Shown: positions 1,793 through 12,185 of the stretch, one piece after another
Layout of the letters: the number at the start of each line of letters is the position of its first letter
Position numbering within the stretch: position 1 is the first letter of the stretch
NCBI GenBank assembly: GCA_945882415.1
Contig: CAMCWC010000019.1
Span: 1 to 44,306, forward strand
Direction: 5' to 3'
Origin: Chthonomonas calidirosea
Lineage (GTDB): Bacteria > Armatimonadota > Fimbriimonadia > Fimbriimonadales > Fimbriimonadaceae
Length of the DNA stretch: 44,306 nt
Position numbers and translations under genes: made by a program
The notes under the pieces: generated by a model
Told to the model about the DNA's origin: nothing
The model's input: the letters and a program-made list of their open reading frames with translations, nothing else
The model's database searches: none

Positions 1793-1831
1793 AAAGCCCG
1801 GTCTGCACGATGCAGACCGGGCTTTTTTTTT
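1793..1831 (+). terminator. Strong bidirectional intrinsic terminator
   Basis: A perfect 15-bp stem (1793-1807 with 1811-1825) with a 3-nt loop runs into nine T at 1823-1831 on the plus strand. On the minus strand the same stem runs into TTTCTT. It therefore serves both the fasciclin gene and the convergent gene ending at 1830. This is the only convergent pair in the window with an obvious shared terminator. Confidence 0.9.
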
Positions 1832-4691
1832 ACAAGCCGTAGCCAAACTCCAAGTTCTGATCCTCGATCTTTTCCTGAATTGGATTGATGCTCACCTTAC
1901 AGCGGCCGGCCCCCGCGTTGCGCGGATATGACCAACCAGGGACGGTCACCTTCTTTACCGAAGTTCCAGCATAGTCAAAGATCTCTATCTCGGACGCCCC
2001 GACTGATCCGGCCGTGTCAGAAATCTGGCTGAATACCGTCAGGTAGTGGGTTTTGTCCTGTGCCTTTTCTGTTATGAGATAGTCTCGTCGCCCTGAAAGC
2101 GAGTCTATATCTTCAATCACGTGATATCCACGGTCAAATGACCATCGTGGAACCGAGCTTCCAGGAAGATTGTCCGGGTCGAACATGCAGAAGTCCGCTT
2201 CAGTTGAAACCCTCACCGCATAAAGGTGACGGTAAATCTCCACCAACATCTCCCCGTACTTTGTGCGCCGAGAGACCTCCAACCCTTCGAAGTCATAGAC
2301 GAAATGATCAAACTCGGCTCGGTCCGGATACCAGAGAGACATCCCGTTGCGACCCGGAATCGCGCTGCCTGCGTAGTTCTTGAGAACCACCGCTTTGAGG
2401 GCGTCACGAATTTCAATTCCCGTGTTTCGGTACGGAATATTGACGCTGGCGATCAAGAAGTCAGCAACCTGCTTGAGGTCGCGACTGTCGGGCCAACTGT
2501 TTCCTCCAGAACTTGCCTCGTGCCGTAGAACGGACGGACAGAACGCCTTAATATCCAGCATGCTCCGCCAGACGTTGCTGTCGTAGAGCCCGTTCAAACC
2601 GTTTCCATCTGGGTCAGACACAATGCGGTTCGACCAACTGTCCACGGCGGTGTCCAGGGCTGGCATCTTGGTCAAGTCGTAGGCGGCAATGTGCTCGTCT
2701 TTAATGCCTAACGCCGTACTATCGGCGGCGAAGTCCTCCACTACCTTGACCGCGAGTTCTTGAGCGGTCATGTTAGGGTTGTCAACTAGGCCCTGCATCG
2801 TCAAGTCATAGCGCAGTCCACGTCCAGGCATCAGGACCTGTGATCCTACGTATGCCTTGGCCACGTCTTGAAATTCGCTCACGACTTCCCAAGAGCCCAT
2901 GAGGCAAGCATCGTTTACGATAACGTCAACCGGCCCGGTGCGCTTTATCACGTCATGAATGTCATCGACGGTCATGAAGTTTCCGGATGAATCGTCATAC
3001 GAGAATCCAGCTCGCTTGGGGCGCGCAACGGCGCGCGCATGGTTTGCGTTCCGACGTAATGCGGGCGTTGCCCGGAAACCGTTCCCGTGATCCCAGAGAA
3101 TCAGCGCGTACTTCTCGGCCGGGCGATACGCTTTAGCCCAACGAATGAACTCTTCCAGTTCACTCACCTGACCCATGTCTCGCTCACCAAGCCTCTGTAC
3201 CGGCTGCGTGGCAACCTGAGCTTTGTTTTGCGAGTCATATGCCATCAGATAGCGTGCCGAATCACCCTTAAGTGACCGGTCTATTTGGGTGAGGACCGAC
3301 ACATCTGAATTCAGGCCCTTCACATACTGAACCTTTTCCATTTCCTTAAGATCTGGATCGACATAGGGATCTAAGTTGTTGTCCCCATTAATGAAAACCA
3401 TCACCGTCCATTTCTGATTAGCCGGCGCGGTACCGATGACCTCAAAGGAAACGCCGTCTTGACCGTCGGTGTAGTCGATGCTTGGGTCAAATACTCCGTT
3501 CCGGTTTACGTCGACAACAACATCGTACTTGCCAGGTCTGAGGTCAGGGAAAAGCAGGATCTTCGGATCAAACAAGACATCCGCACTCGGAGACGTGAAC
3601 GAAAGTGAACTGTCCGCAGAGAAAAAGCTGATCTGATCTCCGGCGGCAAACGTGCGATCACGATAAACGAGAATGTTTCCCACGGTTGTGCTGCCCGGCA
3701 CGGTTGAAGGTGCAACGGCCATCGGAGTGTCATTTACCAAGAACTGGTTTTGGGCTTCAAAGTTGAAATTGCTAGCCAGGTCAATCTCTCCGCCGGTCGC
3801 CGCACGCCGCGCTCCACTGACGCCGAATGAACCGAGAAGTGCATCTGGTCGCAGATCCGTTCCTTCTTCATAAGTGCCGTTTTTGTTGAGGTCAAGAATG
3901 ACCTCGAAGCGGTACGAGTTTGCCTCGCCGTTGATCGTGGGCCATAGTTCAACGACCGCGCTGCCATCGGCGCCAATCGTCACCCGATCTGCATTGCCAA
4001 CGAGGCGCTGTCTGCCGGGCGGAACACCCGGGTTCTCGCGGAATCCGGAAACGTCCTTGAGCTTCTCACCGGAGCGCATACTCGGAGTGGTTCTCACAAC
4101 AAAGGCATCAAACGTGTCACCGGGGGTAAAGCCGTAAAATTTGGCGGAAACGGACTCAGAAGCGGCGAACAGCCTATTAGGCTCAAAAGCGGTGCTTCCC
4201 TTCCCGACTCGGAACCCCTTACCGGCATTCTCAGCAACGGTGAATGACTGTGAACCAACAAGCGCCGATTCCGTCCCGATCAGACGAGAGACGCGCATCG
4301 TATAAGTCCCGGCTTCCAAAAGTGGCGTGACGAGCGTCGACCGGATTGCACCAGTTTTGTCTGTTCCAACCGTGTTGTACGAAACTACTTTCTCGCCACT
4401 TGGAGCAGTGACGGTATTTCGAGGACCGGTCACAACGACTTCGTAAATGGACTTTTCCGCCAAACCTGTGGCGGTTGCCATTAGCCCCTTCCCGGAAGCA
4501 ATCGGCCCCGTAATGGCAGCACCAGATGAATCCTTAAAGGTGAAATTGCTGATACTTCCGATCGGGCCTCCGCCGCCGCCGGATCCCGTGGCACTACTGC
4601 CACAACCATCGCCCCCGCAACCGGCGAGAGTCAAGAGAATGCCGTAGCTGCAGGCACGGTAAAGAACTCGAGTGATTCTTGAGAAAGCCAT
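1830..4691 (-). CDS. Lipoprotein with C11 (clostripain-like) peptidase domain
   Basis: A 953-residue lipoprotein: a type II signal peptide ends at the lipobox TLAGC (Cys25) and is followed by a Gly/Ser linker. Residues about 45-425 are beta-rich with no recognised family. The peptidase C11 domain starts near residue 427 (KWTVMVFINGDNNLD). It carries the catalytic His in LILWDHGNGF (His535) and the catalytic Cys in IVNDACLMGSWE (Cys596). Clostripain-family enzymes cleave after Arg/Lys, often after self-processing; the specificity here is inferred only. The C-terminal about 150 residues look beta-rich. It lies 70 nt downstream of a LuxR-type regulator on the same strand and may be its target or operon partner. 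Confidence 0.9.
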   Translation of the reverse strand: MAFSRITRVLYRACSYGILLTLAGCGGDGCGSSATGSGGGGGPIGSISNFTFKDSSGAAITGPIASGKGLMATATGLAEKSIYEVVVTGPRNTVTAPSGEKVVSYNTVGTDKTGAIRSTLVTPLLEAGTYTMRVSRLIGTESALVGSQSFTVAENAGKGFRVGKGSTAFEPNRLFAASESVSAKFYGFTPGDTFDAFVVRTTPSMRSGEKLKDVSGFRENPGVPPGRQRLVGNADRVTIGADGSAVVELWPTINGEANSYRFEVILDLNKNGTYEEGTDLRPDALLGSFGVSGARRAATGGEIDLASNFNFEAQNQFLVNDTPMAVAPSTVPGSTTVGNILVYRDRTFAAGDQISFFSADSSLSFTSPSADVLFDPKILLFPDLRPGKYDVVVDVNRNGVFDPSIDYTDGQDGVSFEVIGTAPANQKWTVMVFINGDNNLDPYVDPDLKEMEKVQYVKGLNSDVSVLTQIDRSLKGDSARYLMAYDSQNKAQVATQPVQRLGERDMGQVSELEEFIRWAKAYRPAEKYALILWDHGNGFRATPALRRNANHARAVARPKRAGFSYDDSSGNFMTVDDIHDVIKRTGPVDVIVNDACLMGSWEVVSEFQDVAKAYVGSQVLMPGRGLRYDLTMQGLVDNPNMTAQELAVKVVEDFAADSTALGIKDEHIAAYDLTKMPALDTAVDSWSNRIVSDPDGNGLNGLYDSNVWRSMLDIKAFCPSVLRHEASSGGNSWPDSRDLKQVADFLIASVNIPYRNTGIEIRDALKAVVLKNYAGSAIPGRNGMSLWYPDRAEFDHFVYDFEGLEVSRRTKYGEMLVEIYRHLYAVRVSTEADFCMFDPDNLPGSSVPRWSFDRGYHVIEDIDSLSGRRDYLITEKAQDKTHYLTVFSQISDTAGSVGASEIEIFDYAGTSVKKVTVPGWSYPRNAGAGRCKVSINPIQEKIEDQNLEFGYGL

Positions 4692-8463: not shown

Positions 8464-9789
8464 ATGCCGTTTGATCTCCTCCTCACGAATGCCCAAGTTG
8501 TGACCCCAACCGGAACCGCGGTTGGAGACATTGGAATCACGGACGGCAAGATCGTCGCCCTTGGAGCCCTTGTCGGATCAGAAGCCGCAGACAGCATCGA
8601 CTGCACCGGCCTCACCGTCATTCCCGGACTCATCGACACTCAAGTCCACTTCCGAGAGCCCGGACTGGAGCATAAAGAGGACCTAGAATCCGGCACCCGA
8701 GCGGCCCTGACGGGCGGAGTCACCAGCATCCTCGAGATGCCAAATACGTCACCGAACACCACGGACGCGATCACCTTGCAGGACAAACTCAACCGAGCCG
8801 CGGGCAGGGCCTGGTCCAACTACGGATTCTTCATCGGTGCCTCCACCGAAAACGCCGAGCAGCTTGGTGAGCTCGAGCAATTACCAGGCTGCCCGGGAAT
8901 CAAAATTTTCATGGGCAGCTCAACCGGCAGTCTCTTGGTGTCTAATGAAGAGGACATTCGAAAGGTCTTGAAAAACGGCACTCGCCCGTGCCCAATTCAC
9001 GCCGAAGACGAGCCTCGAAACCGAGCACGAAAGTCACTGATCTCCGAGGAACCATCCGCCCGCGAGCACCCCTTCCTCCGCGACAGCGAAAGTGCAATCA
9101 TGGCGACGCGCCAGATTCTGCGGCTGAGCAAAGAGACCGGCCGACCAGTCCACGTGCTGCACATCAGCACCAAGGAAGAGCCATGGATTATCGATGAAGC
9201 CCGCAAAGCCGGTGTCCGCGCAACTTCCGAGGTCACTCCGCAGCATCTATTCTTCGCCGGTCCCGACTGCTACGACCGCCTTGGATCGTTGGCCCAAATG
9301 AACCCACCCATCCGAAGCGAAGAAGACCGCGCCGGGCTGTGGCGCGCACTGGACGAAGGTCTTTTCGATGTGTTCGGTAGCGACCACGCGCCGCACACGC
9401 TGGAAGAAAAGTCCAAGCCCTACCCTGCCTCGCCGAGCGGAATGCCCGGCGTCCAAACGCTCCTGCCGGTGCTCCTGACTTTTGTCGCCCAAGGTCGCCT
9501 TGCGCTTGAAACACTGGTGCGGATGTCTTCAACGCGTCCCGCGGAGCTTTATAACATTCAGGGCAAAGGATCAATTGCAGTTGGCATGGACGCGGATCTG
9601 ACCATCGTCGACGTCAACCGAAAGTGGACATTCGAGCGGGCCCATGTCGAAAGCAAGTGCGGCTGGTCGCCTTACGAAGGGGAAACCTTCACCGGCGCGG
9701 TCGAGCACGTCATCCTGGGCGGCTCCGTGGCCGTCCGTTCTGGCGAGCGCATCGCGAAACCGACCGGCCAAATGCTCGAATTTCGGTGA
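8464..9789 (+). CDS. pyrC: Dihydroorotase (amidohydrolase family)
   Basis: Converts carbamoyl-aspartate to dihydroorotate in pyrimidine synthesis; 441 residues. Recognisable family elements are PGLIDTQVHFREPG, LEMPNTSPNT, GIKIFMGSSTGSLLV, PIHAEDE, HVLHIST, FGSDHAPHTLEEK and the C-terminal GMDADLTIVD. In most dihydroorotases the first metal motif is DxHxH; here it reads DTQVH, with Gln60 replacing the first His. To my knowledge the same variant occurs in Bacteroidetes-type dihydroorotases, so activity is still expected, with an altered metal site. A related cyclic amidohydrolase is the alternative. It diverges from xth by 27 nt and ends directly against the pafA-like stop. Confidence 0.88.
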   Translation: MPFDLLLTNAQVVTPTGTAVGDIGITDGKIVALGALVGSEAADSIDCTGLTVIPGLIDTQVHFREPGLEHKEDLESGTRAALTGGVTSILEMPNTSPNTTDAITLQDKLNRAAGRAWSNYGFFIGASTENAEQLGELEQLPGCPGIKIFMGSSTGSLLVSNEEDIRKVLKNGTRPCPIHAEDEPRNRARKSLISEEPSAREHPFLRDSESAIMATRQILRLSKETGRPVHVLHISTKEEPWIIDEARKAGVRATSEVTPQHLFFAGPDCYDRLGSLAQMNPPIRSEEDRAGLWRALDEGLFDVFGSDHAPHTLEEKSKPYPASPSGMPGVQTLLPVLLTFVAQGRLALETLVRMSSTRPAELYNIQGKGSIAVGMDADLTIVDVNRKWTFERAHVESKCGWSPYEGETFTGAVEHVILGGSVAVRSGERIAKPTGQMLEFR

Positions 9790-11265
9790 TTACTTGGCGT
9801 CCAGAGCGTTGACCCCGTCATACGTGTCAAACGGATCGCTCAGATCGATGTGCCGATCACGAGCGGTCTGAACCCCGTTCCAGTCGAAGACGTAGTACCG
9901 CGACTTCTTCTGCAGCACCTGCTCCACCAACCGCGCGCGACCCTTTGCCCGCGTGTTTTGCGGCGGGTCTGTCATTGCCGTGACAATATCCAAGTCATCG
10001 ACCATCCGCTTCGTCTTGCCCATTTCTTGATACGCGTGGAAGAGCGACGCTGCGGGATCGATGTTGTGGTACTCAAGGTCGACGGAATGCAGCGCATCAT
10101 CGCTCCACTCCAGGCCTTCTTCGGTCCGGTACTGATCGACGATCTGCCGCTTAGCAACCCAGTCAATCCGATCGCCCAGCTGCAACGGGTCTTTCTCCAG
10201 ACCATCCAAAATCGACACCCAGTTGTCCAGCGTCCAGTTGATCTGTTCGCTCTCGTCCCGATACGCCTGTGCGAGTTCAAGATATTGGCGTTGGATGTCA
10301 ATCGCGTTCGAACTCGAGCCATCCAGCATTTCGACCTTCCATTGGTATGAAGGATCACGCGAAACCTGCCGAAGCGCGATCAACGGCTGGGCGATGATCA
10401 TCGATTCGGGGATTCGACCCTCCTCGGCTAGCCTGAGCGCAATCAGCGTCGTACCGATCTTGAGCGCATAGGCAAACTCGTTCTGGTTGCTCTCGCCGAA
10501 GAGCATGTGGAGCCGGGTGAAGCCGTTGTGCGAGTAGAAATGCTCCCACTTCGGATTGATCAGCGCTCGGTTAAAGCGAACCCGCGAGGCGAGCGTTTTG
10601 ATAATGTGATCCGCACGCTGGCTGAGCTGAAAATCAACCCCGTCATCCGGAATCACGCCGTAAACGTTCGAAACCCAGATGTAGTCGACCGGGTTGTTCG
10701 CCATCTCCTGATAGCTCGGTCGATATCCGCCGGCCGTCAGAACGTGCCCACCCACTCGACCAACTCCGGCAAAAATTTGGCGGGTCACGAGAAACGGATA
10801 CAGCAACACGACTCCGGACTCAAGGAGTGAGTCATCCGCTCGGACCATGTAGTTCTCATGGCAACCAAACGTGTGCCCACCAAAGTGATCAACGCTGTTG
10901 TTGTAAACGCTGACGACATCCTGAACGCCGAGATCATAAATTGCTCGAACGATCTGCCGTTGCCCGGCTCGGTCGTTTGCGACCAAGTCCGTCAACGTTA
11001 GACATTCCGCCGTTGCATATTCCAAGTGACTTCCGACCGCGTCGATGTACATTCGCGCGCCGTTCATCAGGAATCCGCCGGATTGTGCCGGCTCAAAAAC
11101 GTCGTCTCGCGAATGAAGATCGATTGCGCCGAGCTTCATTTCATAGAACAGCGTGTCCTTGATGGCCTCAACCACGCCCTCCGGAGTTCCGAGGTTCTCG
11201 TCCGCGACGAGACATCCAAACTCTGTTTCAACTCCGAAAATACGATCACCGGGGCGGCGGCTCAT
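9790..11265 (-). CDS. pafA: Pup ligase / deamidase family protein (PafA/Dop-like)
   Basis: Carboxylate-amine ligase-fold protein of 491 residues. In actinobacteria PafA joins the C-terminal Glu of Pup to substrate lysines for the proteasome, and Dop deamidates or removes Pup. Conserved signatures: FGVETEFG (metal-binding Glu), NGARMYIDAVGSHLEYATAE with the catalytic-type Asp, FGCHENYMV, LLYPFLVTRQI, MLFGESNQNE, SNAIDIQRQYL and RIDWVAKRQI. The VGSHxEYATAEC text is closer to PafA than Dop, but about 15 extra residues sit where Dop carries its loop. The ATG at 11265 (Met3 of the longest frame) lies 6 nt after TAGACT; 11271 is the alternative. No Pup, UBact, proteasome or ATPase gene is in the window. 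Confidence 0.9.
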   Translation of the reverse strand: MSRRPGDRIFGVETEFGCLVADENLGTPEGVVEAIKDTLFYEMKLGAIDLHSRDDVFEPAQSGGFLMNGARMYIDAVGSHLEYATAECLTLTDLVANDRAGQRQIVRAIYDLGVQDVVSVYNNSVDHFGGHTFGCHENYMVRADDSLLESGVVLLYPFLVTRQIFAGVGRVGGHVLTAGGYRPSYQEMANNPVDYIWVSNVYGVIPDDGVDFQLSQRADHIIKTLASRVRFNRALINPKWEHFYSHNGFTRLHMLFGESNQNEFAYALKIGTTLIALRLAEEGRIPESMIIAQPLIALRQVSRDPSYQWKVEMLDGSSSNAIDIQRQYLELAQAYRDESEQINWTLDNWVSILDGLEKDPLQLGDRIDWVAKRQIVDQYRTEEGLEWSDDALHSVDLEYHNIDPAASLFHAYQEMGKTKRMVDDLDIVTAMTDPPQNTRAKGRARLVEQVLQKKSRYYVFDWNGVQTARDRHIDLSDPFDTYDGVNALDAK

Positions 11266-11271
11266 GGTCAT

Positions 11272-11277: not shown

Positions 11278-11318
11278 CGTAGGTGAAGGCCAGATTGCCC
11301 ACCAGACCCAGTGGCACG

Positions 11319-12185
11319 ATGAATCCGTCGTCCGAGGTGCCCGGTCTGGTATCTTTGATAGCCTTGAGAAGTCCGGCTAGCGGTCCCGATGGAGCTTTTC
11401 TTCAGTGTCAGAACTGCAAGAAAATTATCTTCTCCGTGGAGTTCGAACAGAATTTGCGGGTGTGTCCACACTGTCAACACCATCACCGGTTGACCGCGCA
11501 AATTCGCATCGACTGGACGTTCGATGAGGGCTCCTTCGTCGAGCACGACACCGGCCTGAGCTCGGTTGACCCACTTGGGTTCCCAGATTACGGCAAAAAG
11601 CTCGAACAGCTGAACGCAAAGGGCGAGAATCACGACTCCGTTCTAAGCGGTACGGCGACGATTGAAGGCCTTAAGGTCAGCGCGGCCGTTTGCGATTTCG
11701 CCTTCATCGGCGGGTCGATGGGTAGCGTGGCCGGCGAAAAGATCACCCGCGCGCTTGAGCGAGGCATCGAACTCAAATGCCCAGTAATCATCTTCTGCGC
11801 CTCGGGCGGCGCTCGCATGCAGGAAGGACTGCTCAGCCTCATGCAGATGGCGAAAACCACCGGCGCCGTCGAAAAGTGCCGGGCGAACGGCATCCCTTAC
11901 ATCGCGGTGTTCACCGACCCAACGATGGCTGGCGTTCTCGCAAGCTATGCCAGCGTGGCGGACGTCATTATCGCGGAGCCGAAAGCGCTCGTGGGCTTCG
12001 CTGGTCTCCGCGTAAGCAAGCAGGCGGGAGTTGGTAAAGTGCCCGACGATTTCCAAACCGCCGAATTCGTTCTCAAACACGGCATGATCGATCGCATCGT
12101 CTCTCGAAAAGAACTCCGAGCAACCCTAGCAGGCCTCGTCCGAACCCTTGGCGGACACCTTCTCCATGCGGAGGCAGAAGCCTGA
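11319..12185 (+). CDS. accD: Acetyl-CoA carboxylase carboxyltransferase subunit beta
   Basis: The zinc-binding beta subunit of the carboxyltransferase that makes malonyl-CoA for fatty-acid synthesis. The N-terminal zinc ribbon (CQNCKK, then VCPHCQHHHR) is complete. It is followed by FIGGSMGSVAGEKI, FCASGGARMQEGLLSLMQM, VFTDPTMAGVLASYAS, EPKALVGFAG and DDFQTAEF. The start is not settled: GTG 11283 (300 residues), ATG 11319 (288, used here) and TTG 11364 (273) are in frame. The TTG is preceded by CTGGTATCTTTGATAGCC, nearly the text before the thiolase start. The stop overlaps the accA start (TGATG), so the two are translationally coupled. Confidence 0.95.
   Translation: MNPSSEVPGLVSLIALRSPASGPDGAFLQCQNCKKIIFSVEFEQNLRVCPHCQHHHRLTAQIRIDWTFDEGSFVEHDTGLSSVDPLGFPDYGKKLEQLNAKGENHDSVLSGTATIEGLKVSAAVCDFAFIGGSMGSVAGEKITRALERGIELKCPVIIFCASGGARMQEGLLSLMQMAKTTGAVEKCRANGIPYIAVFTDPTMAGVLASYASVADVIIAEPKALVGFAGLRVSKQAGVGKVPDDFQTAEFVLKHGMIDRIVSRKELRATLAGLVRTLGGHLLHAEAEA
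11350..11355 (+). promoter_or_regulatory. Possible TATCTT -10 element of accD
   Basis: GGTATCTT recurs before the thiolase gene at 27707-27714. Here it lies 8 nt before the in-frame TTG at 11364. If active it would make accD start at that TTG. Confidence 0.28.

Follow-up and report, generated by a model that had tools for sequence, protein, structure and literature searches.

A PafA-type gene, probably the ligase of a UBact-proteasome system, stands apart from its partner genes in a Fimbriimonadaceae genome

RESULTS

The locus

The window, by which we mean the whole stretch of 44,306 nucleotides that was analysed (contig CAMCWC010000019.1 of assembly GCA_945882415.1, Chthonomonas calidirosea; Fimbriimonadaceae, Armatimonadota), contains an intact 493-aa open reading frame encoding a PafA/Dop-family protein. 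An earlier reading, made from the sequence alone, had placed this gene between pyrC and accD, and both neighbours are indeed matched by NCBIfam profiles:

8464-9789, + strand: pyrC (dihydroorotase), NF006559 597 bits; convergent neighbour, no functional link
9790-11271, - strand: putative pafA-type UBact ligase gene, 493 aa (PF03136, tree, AlphaFold model)
11283-12185, + strand: accD, TIGR00515 326.6 bits (cut-off 317.45); divergent neighbour, no known functional link

The genes pyrC and pafA lie tail to tail (ends at 9789/9790), and accD lies head to head with pafA; the end at 11265 reported previously corresponds to a start at the second Met, the full frame reaching 11271. Profile searches found no tag or proteasome genes among the genes scanned around pafA, so that the claim of a PafA/Dop-like gene without Pup, UBact or proteasome holds for the window itself, the partners being on other contigs. 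A conserved link of pafA to pyrC or accD was considered and dropped: adjacency to pyrC recurs only in a 96%-identical relative (L039), and accD-accA adjoin pafA in 10 of 33 named relatives. The named relatives comprise Fimbriimonadaceae and other Armatimonadota. Elsewhere in the window, the 953-aa product of positions 1830-4691 (-) contains a peptidase domain of the clostripain (C11) type (PF03415, 138.7 bits).

The window protein matches PF03136 (Pup_ligase, Pfam) over the full length of the profile (405.7 bits, E 3.6e-121, gathering cut-off 25 bits; residues 10-467 against profile positions 1-440 of 441). The NCBIfam models score it at 281.5 bits as PafA and 270.8 bits as Dop, both below the curated equivalog cut-offs (551.3 bits for TIGR03686, the Pup--protein ligase equivalog), and these scores alone give no choice between ligase and deligase; the identity claimed below is that of a UBact ligase, not of a Pup ligase.

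Partner genes in the same genome

The genome searched (3.36 Mb in 38 contigs, 99.19% complete, contamination 0; Fimbriimonadaceae-type Armatimonadota) contains exactly two PF03136 genes, the window gene and one on contig C3. The sequence-only reading had proposed looking genome-wide for UBact, prcA/prcB, Mpa/ARC and a second PafA/Dop copy, and all of these were found, on C3 and C6:

L005:9417-11039, + strand (own genome, C3): PF03136 gene, Dop-like
C3:150035-150217: UBact, 60 aa, ending RQRSGE; NF033388 79.5 bits (cut-off 35), PF20513 78.3 bits
C3, behind UBact: prcB, TIGR03690 136.7 bits
C6:137075-137743: prcA, TIGR03691 66.2 bits, E 2.9e-18, below the curated cut-off
C6, about 60.6 kb: Mpa/ARC-type ATPase, TIGR03689 437.9 bits (cut-off 504.75), two PF16450 matches

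The second PF03136 gene scores 350.4 bits as Dop against 252.3 bits as PafA and has a full-length Dop loop with the motif WDYxxExPxxDxRGF. On C3, Dop is followed by UBact and then prcB, with overlaps of 4 bp (ATGA, Dop stop/UBact start) and 1 bp (TAATG, UBact stop/prcB start), and prcA and the ATPase occupy two separate places on C6. The matches to prcB, prcA and the ATPase are all significant and all below the NCBIfam equivalog cut-offs. Pup gave no match in the genome up to E 1 and was dropped as the modifier, while UBact, which had been suggested as a different modifier, stands directly behind Dop. The finding named in the sequence-only reading as refuting it, a full locus for tag and proteasome at another place that includes a pafA of its own, was looked for and is not what the genome shows, the C3 locus consisting of Dop, UBact and prcB without a second PafA. 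The window pafA is not an orphan: tag, tag-remover, proteasome and ATPase lie at other loci of the same genome.

Among 79 UBact-bearing loci, in which some genomes are counted twice, the tag ends in RQRSGE in 58 and in RQRSGQ in 21. Because the UBact of this genome ends in Glu, deamidation by Dop would not be needed in this organism. Both ends occur within one family (e.g., L121 compared with L005), GE being the commoner, and with such a mix the need for deamidation by Dop would vary within Armatimonadota. Two loci (G013:C4:768105-768378 and G079:C30:12142-12415) each carry two adjacent UBact-like matches, and the tag may have been duplicated in tandem there.

Tree position and predicted fold

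UBact PafA, UBact Dop, Pup PafA and Pup Dop came out as four strongly supported groups. The window gene, for which placement in a PafA-Dop tree had been proposed, fell into the UBact-PafA group with 46 other Armatimonadota PafAs (SH-aLRT 100). The deeper branching is less firm. With the Pup side represented by a few fast-evolving Actinomycetota, the careful tree joins UBact PafA and Pup PafA at 87/74, a grouping that is preferred without being firm, whereas a quick tree instead paired the enzymes by system (support 74), and this system-wise pairing was not rejected against the careful tree (p-AU 0.365). Ligase and deligase may thus have arisen separately in the two lineages, that of UBact and that of Pup.

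The AlphaFold model of the window protein (pLDDT 87.1, pTM 0.90) resembles Dop (5lrt: Z 42.8, rmsd 2.3, 434 residues, 33% identity) a little more closely than PafA-Pup (4bjr_B: Z 38.7, rmsd 2.6, 429 residues, 32% identity), and YbdK-type and gamma-glutamylcysteine ligases score far lower (Z of about 20 and below).

Active site and diagnostic residues

The following elements of the gene, all on the - strand, bear on its active site and type:

9883-9885: Asp463, PafA-diagnostic (M. smegmatis PafA Asp418; Ser450 in Dop)
10543-10557: NPKWE in place of NTRDE (Pup-PafA, Dop), with Lys241 at the phosphate-binding Arg site
11041-11064: NGARMYID with catalytic Asp77, an Asp that every PafA and Dop in the comparison has
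11074-11130: region (GxxDxxxRDxxFEPxxxGGF) that includes the 12-14 residues by which the protein exceeds Pup-PafA, where the loop of Dop would be, by spacing and conservation
11215-11235: GVETEFG metal-binding strand, whose two Glu (E15, E17) occur in every PafA of the comparison

The metal-binding and catalytic residues of A. cellulolyticus Dop (E8, E10, Y92, D94, E99, H155, R205 and H241) map to E15, E17, Y75, D77, E84, H138, R219 and H255 and are all kept, which bears out the earlier description of the active-site text as intact. Asp418 of M. smegmatis PafA and the VGS signature are among the residues separating PafA from Dop (PMC7947786); the position equivalent to Asp418 is Asp in 47 of 47 Armatimonadota PafAs and in 10 of 11 actinobacterial PafAs (the other being gapped there), and in none of 58 Dops. 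Because of its tree position, Asp463 and the PafA-type VGS signature at residues 79-81, the window protein is judged to be of the PafA (ligase) type rather than Dop, in line with the earlier remark that it reads like PafA.

One departure concerns the phosphate-binding motif. R227 of A. cellulolyticus Dop (NTRDEP), which holds the catalytic phosphate (PMC8599861), is a widely conserved trait outside the Pfam definition of PF03136, and its place is taken by Lys241 in the window protein, a replacement that keeps the charge. In a comparison covering Armatimonadota and Actinomycetota sequences, P and K of this NPK motif are present in 47/47 Armatimonadota PafAs, always in the form NPK(W/R)(E/D), whereas T and R, as part of NTRDE, are found in 11/11 actinobacterial PafAs and 58/58 Dops. 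The Arg-to-Lys change could alter or weaken the chemistry. We found no description of NPK for NTR in PafAs in the literature searched, to which the original UBact report did not belong.

Among the Dops, several of those from Fimbriimonadales (that of the C3 locus, L005, and those of L121, L131 and L097) have the first metal-binding Glu (GIETEYG) replaced by Asp (GLDTEYG, GIDTEYG, GSDIEYG); the PafAs keep this Glu without exception.

The extra residues at the place of the Dop loop

The sequence-only reading had counted about 15 additional residues where Dop has its loop, and had considered that a single enzyme might do both jobs. The insertion is real and at that position, but it amounts to 12-14 residues and has no Dop-loop motif. 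The spacing from ETEFG to NGAR is 49-57 aa in all Armatimonadota PafAs (50 aa in the window protein) against 36-38 aa in actinobacterial PafAs, and 75-80 aa in Armatimonadota and 90-104 aa in actinobacterial Dops; it is too short in the window protein for a Dop loop of ~40 residues, and WDYxxExPxxDxRGF is confined to Dops in the alignment. Nine residues of the segment (G48, D51, R55, F59, E60, P61, G65, G66 and F67) are invariant among 27 Armatimonadota PafAs. Since the segment is present in every Armatimonadota PafA examined, strongly conserved and devoid of the Dop motif, it is a constant feature of these PafAs and does not point to dual function.

A bifunctional enzyme that attaches and removes the tag, with the extra residues serving as its Dop loop, would agree with the sequence position of these residues and with the closeness of the model to the structures of both Dop and PafA. 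We nevertheless regard it as very improbable, because a separate Dop with the complete loop and motif adjoins UBact in the same genome, and the same short segment is found in PafAs that have a Dop in their own operon.

Distribution and gene order across Armatimonadota

PF03136 was found in 150 of 251 genomes of the phylum sample and UBact above the cut-off in 137, all of them within the 150. Distant Armatimonadota have the order Mpa-Dop-UBact-PrcB-PrcA-PafA (L083 and L095, and also L102, where a gap precedes PafA), and relatives of the same order as the window genome have Dop-UBact-PrcB-PrcA-PafA (L084-L087). The PafA standing last in these blocks is the ortholog of the window PafA, and intact UBact operons thus contain orthologs that share its NPK motif. 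In some of these lineages PafA has already come away from the block (L091/L092, L098/L099). Within the window's family, 33 named loci were compared, 27 of them with complete 6-kb flanks, and none has Dop, UBact, PrcA, PrcB or Mpa beside PafA. G117, a single-contig genome from the genus of the window genome, has Dop-UBact-PrcB at ~1.55 Mb, PrcA at ~3.47 Mb and PafA at ~3.73 Mb. Of the 61 genomes from the family, 55 have PrcA. In this family the UBact block is scattered, with PafA alone, and the gene set is kept. Two small genomes of the same family (G177 and G181; 1.5 Mb, 97% complete) gave no match to PF03136, UBact or PrcA in profile searches, a joint absence that fits one functional unit.

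These distributions bear on two further explanations. The gene might be a divergent paralogue that now serves some other carboxylate-amine ligation outside the UBact system, which would suit its distance from the other genes of the system and the NPKW for NTRD in its active site; however, it is the sole PafA-type copy in the genome, its NPK orthologs lie in intact operons, and the system is missing as a whole from the two reduced genomes, which makes this reading highly unlikely. That the contig was mis-binned and its PafA belongs to another organism is scarcely credible, since the fragmentation into 38 contigs is offset by the completeness and contamination values given above, the 96%-identical relative has the same pyrC, accD and accA neighbours on a 916-kb contig, and the recurrence of a detached PafA in single-contig G117 contradicts it.

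Some Armatimonadota, most of them with no UBact match in their genomes, have a second kind of PF03136 cluster, with tandem divergent PafA-like genes: L167 (G005:C39), L168 (G007:C18), L170 (G053:C507), L171 (G219:C78), L172 (G132:C13) and G082:C14. An AAA ATPase adjoins the tandem in five of these six, carrying a proteasomal-ATPase OB domain in L167, L168 and L170 and weakly in L171; a JAB-type protein is found in L167, L168 and L171, a ThiF/E1-like protein in L168, and a YukD-like ubiquitin-fold ORF in L172 (9889-10161, -). Such a cluster gives the impression of an E1/JAB-type system that works with an enzyme of the PafA family.

DISCUSSION

The window gene very probably encodes the PafA-type ligase of a UBact-proteasome system, attaching UBact, a ubiquitin-like tag already known from bacteria, to proteins for proteasomal degradation. 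This reading is based on several lines of evidence: (i) the full gene set in the same genome; (ii) orthology to the PafA of intact operons; (iii) an intact active site; (iv) a separate Dop; and (v) the joint absence from two small genomes. By homology with PafA, the enzyme would consume ATP in phosphorylating UBact at the gamma-carboxylate of its C-terminal glutamate and would then transfer UBact onto a lysine of the target protein; the Dop-type enzyme of C3 would take the tag off, and the unfolding and breakdown of tagged proteins would fall to the Mpa/ARC-type ATPase and the PrcA/PrcB proteasome. We infer the chemistry, the substrates and the continued joint action of the scattered genes.

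The UBact conjugation system (PF20513/NF033388; PafA, Dop, Mpa and PrcAB), reportedly first described by Lehmann and co-workers in 2017, has the gene set found here, with a tag of the same family ending in G-E or G-Q and the same PafA ortholog as in intact Armatimonadota operons; the difference is that the genes of this genome lie at at least four places, compared with one operon. The actinobacterial Pup ligase PafA (4bjr, 4b0t) shares with the window protein the fold, the metal-binding residues and the PafA-diagnostic Asp, but it uses Pup whereas the window ligase would use UBact, and the window type differs from it in the 12-14 extra conserved residues before NGAR, in NPK(W/R)(E/D) for NTRDEP and in GE(S/A/P/G)N for GD(S/T)N. 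The depupylase Dop (5lrt, 7oyh) likewise shares fold and metal-binding residues, but the window protein is without the Dop loop, has PafA-type VGS and DW signatures and stands apart in the tree. It is conceivable, if in our estimate rather doubtful, that UBact ligases form a mechanistically distinct class, in which the Lys of NPK(W/R) in place of the phosphate-binding Arg and FEPxxxGGF at the place of the Dop loop would make tag recognition or the phosphoryl step unlike that of pupylation.

To conclude, the apparent puzzle of a tag ligase without a tag is removed: enzyme and system are both of a known kind, and although the genomic arrangement is unusual, the window gene is ordinary apart from its location. 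PafA genes were found to neighbour Pup in all lineages seen by Iyer and co-workers in 2008 (PMC2588565), and the window's family departs from this pattern in that PafA is not beside the tag gene. The sole part deserving specialist attention is the UBact-PafA signature; the NPK motif and the conserved insert offer an easy way to recognise UBact-type ligases of Armatimonadota by sequence, as well as residues to mutate. Since the operon came apart in one family, annotation by gene context would miss or misname the ligase there.
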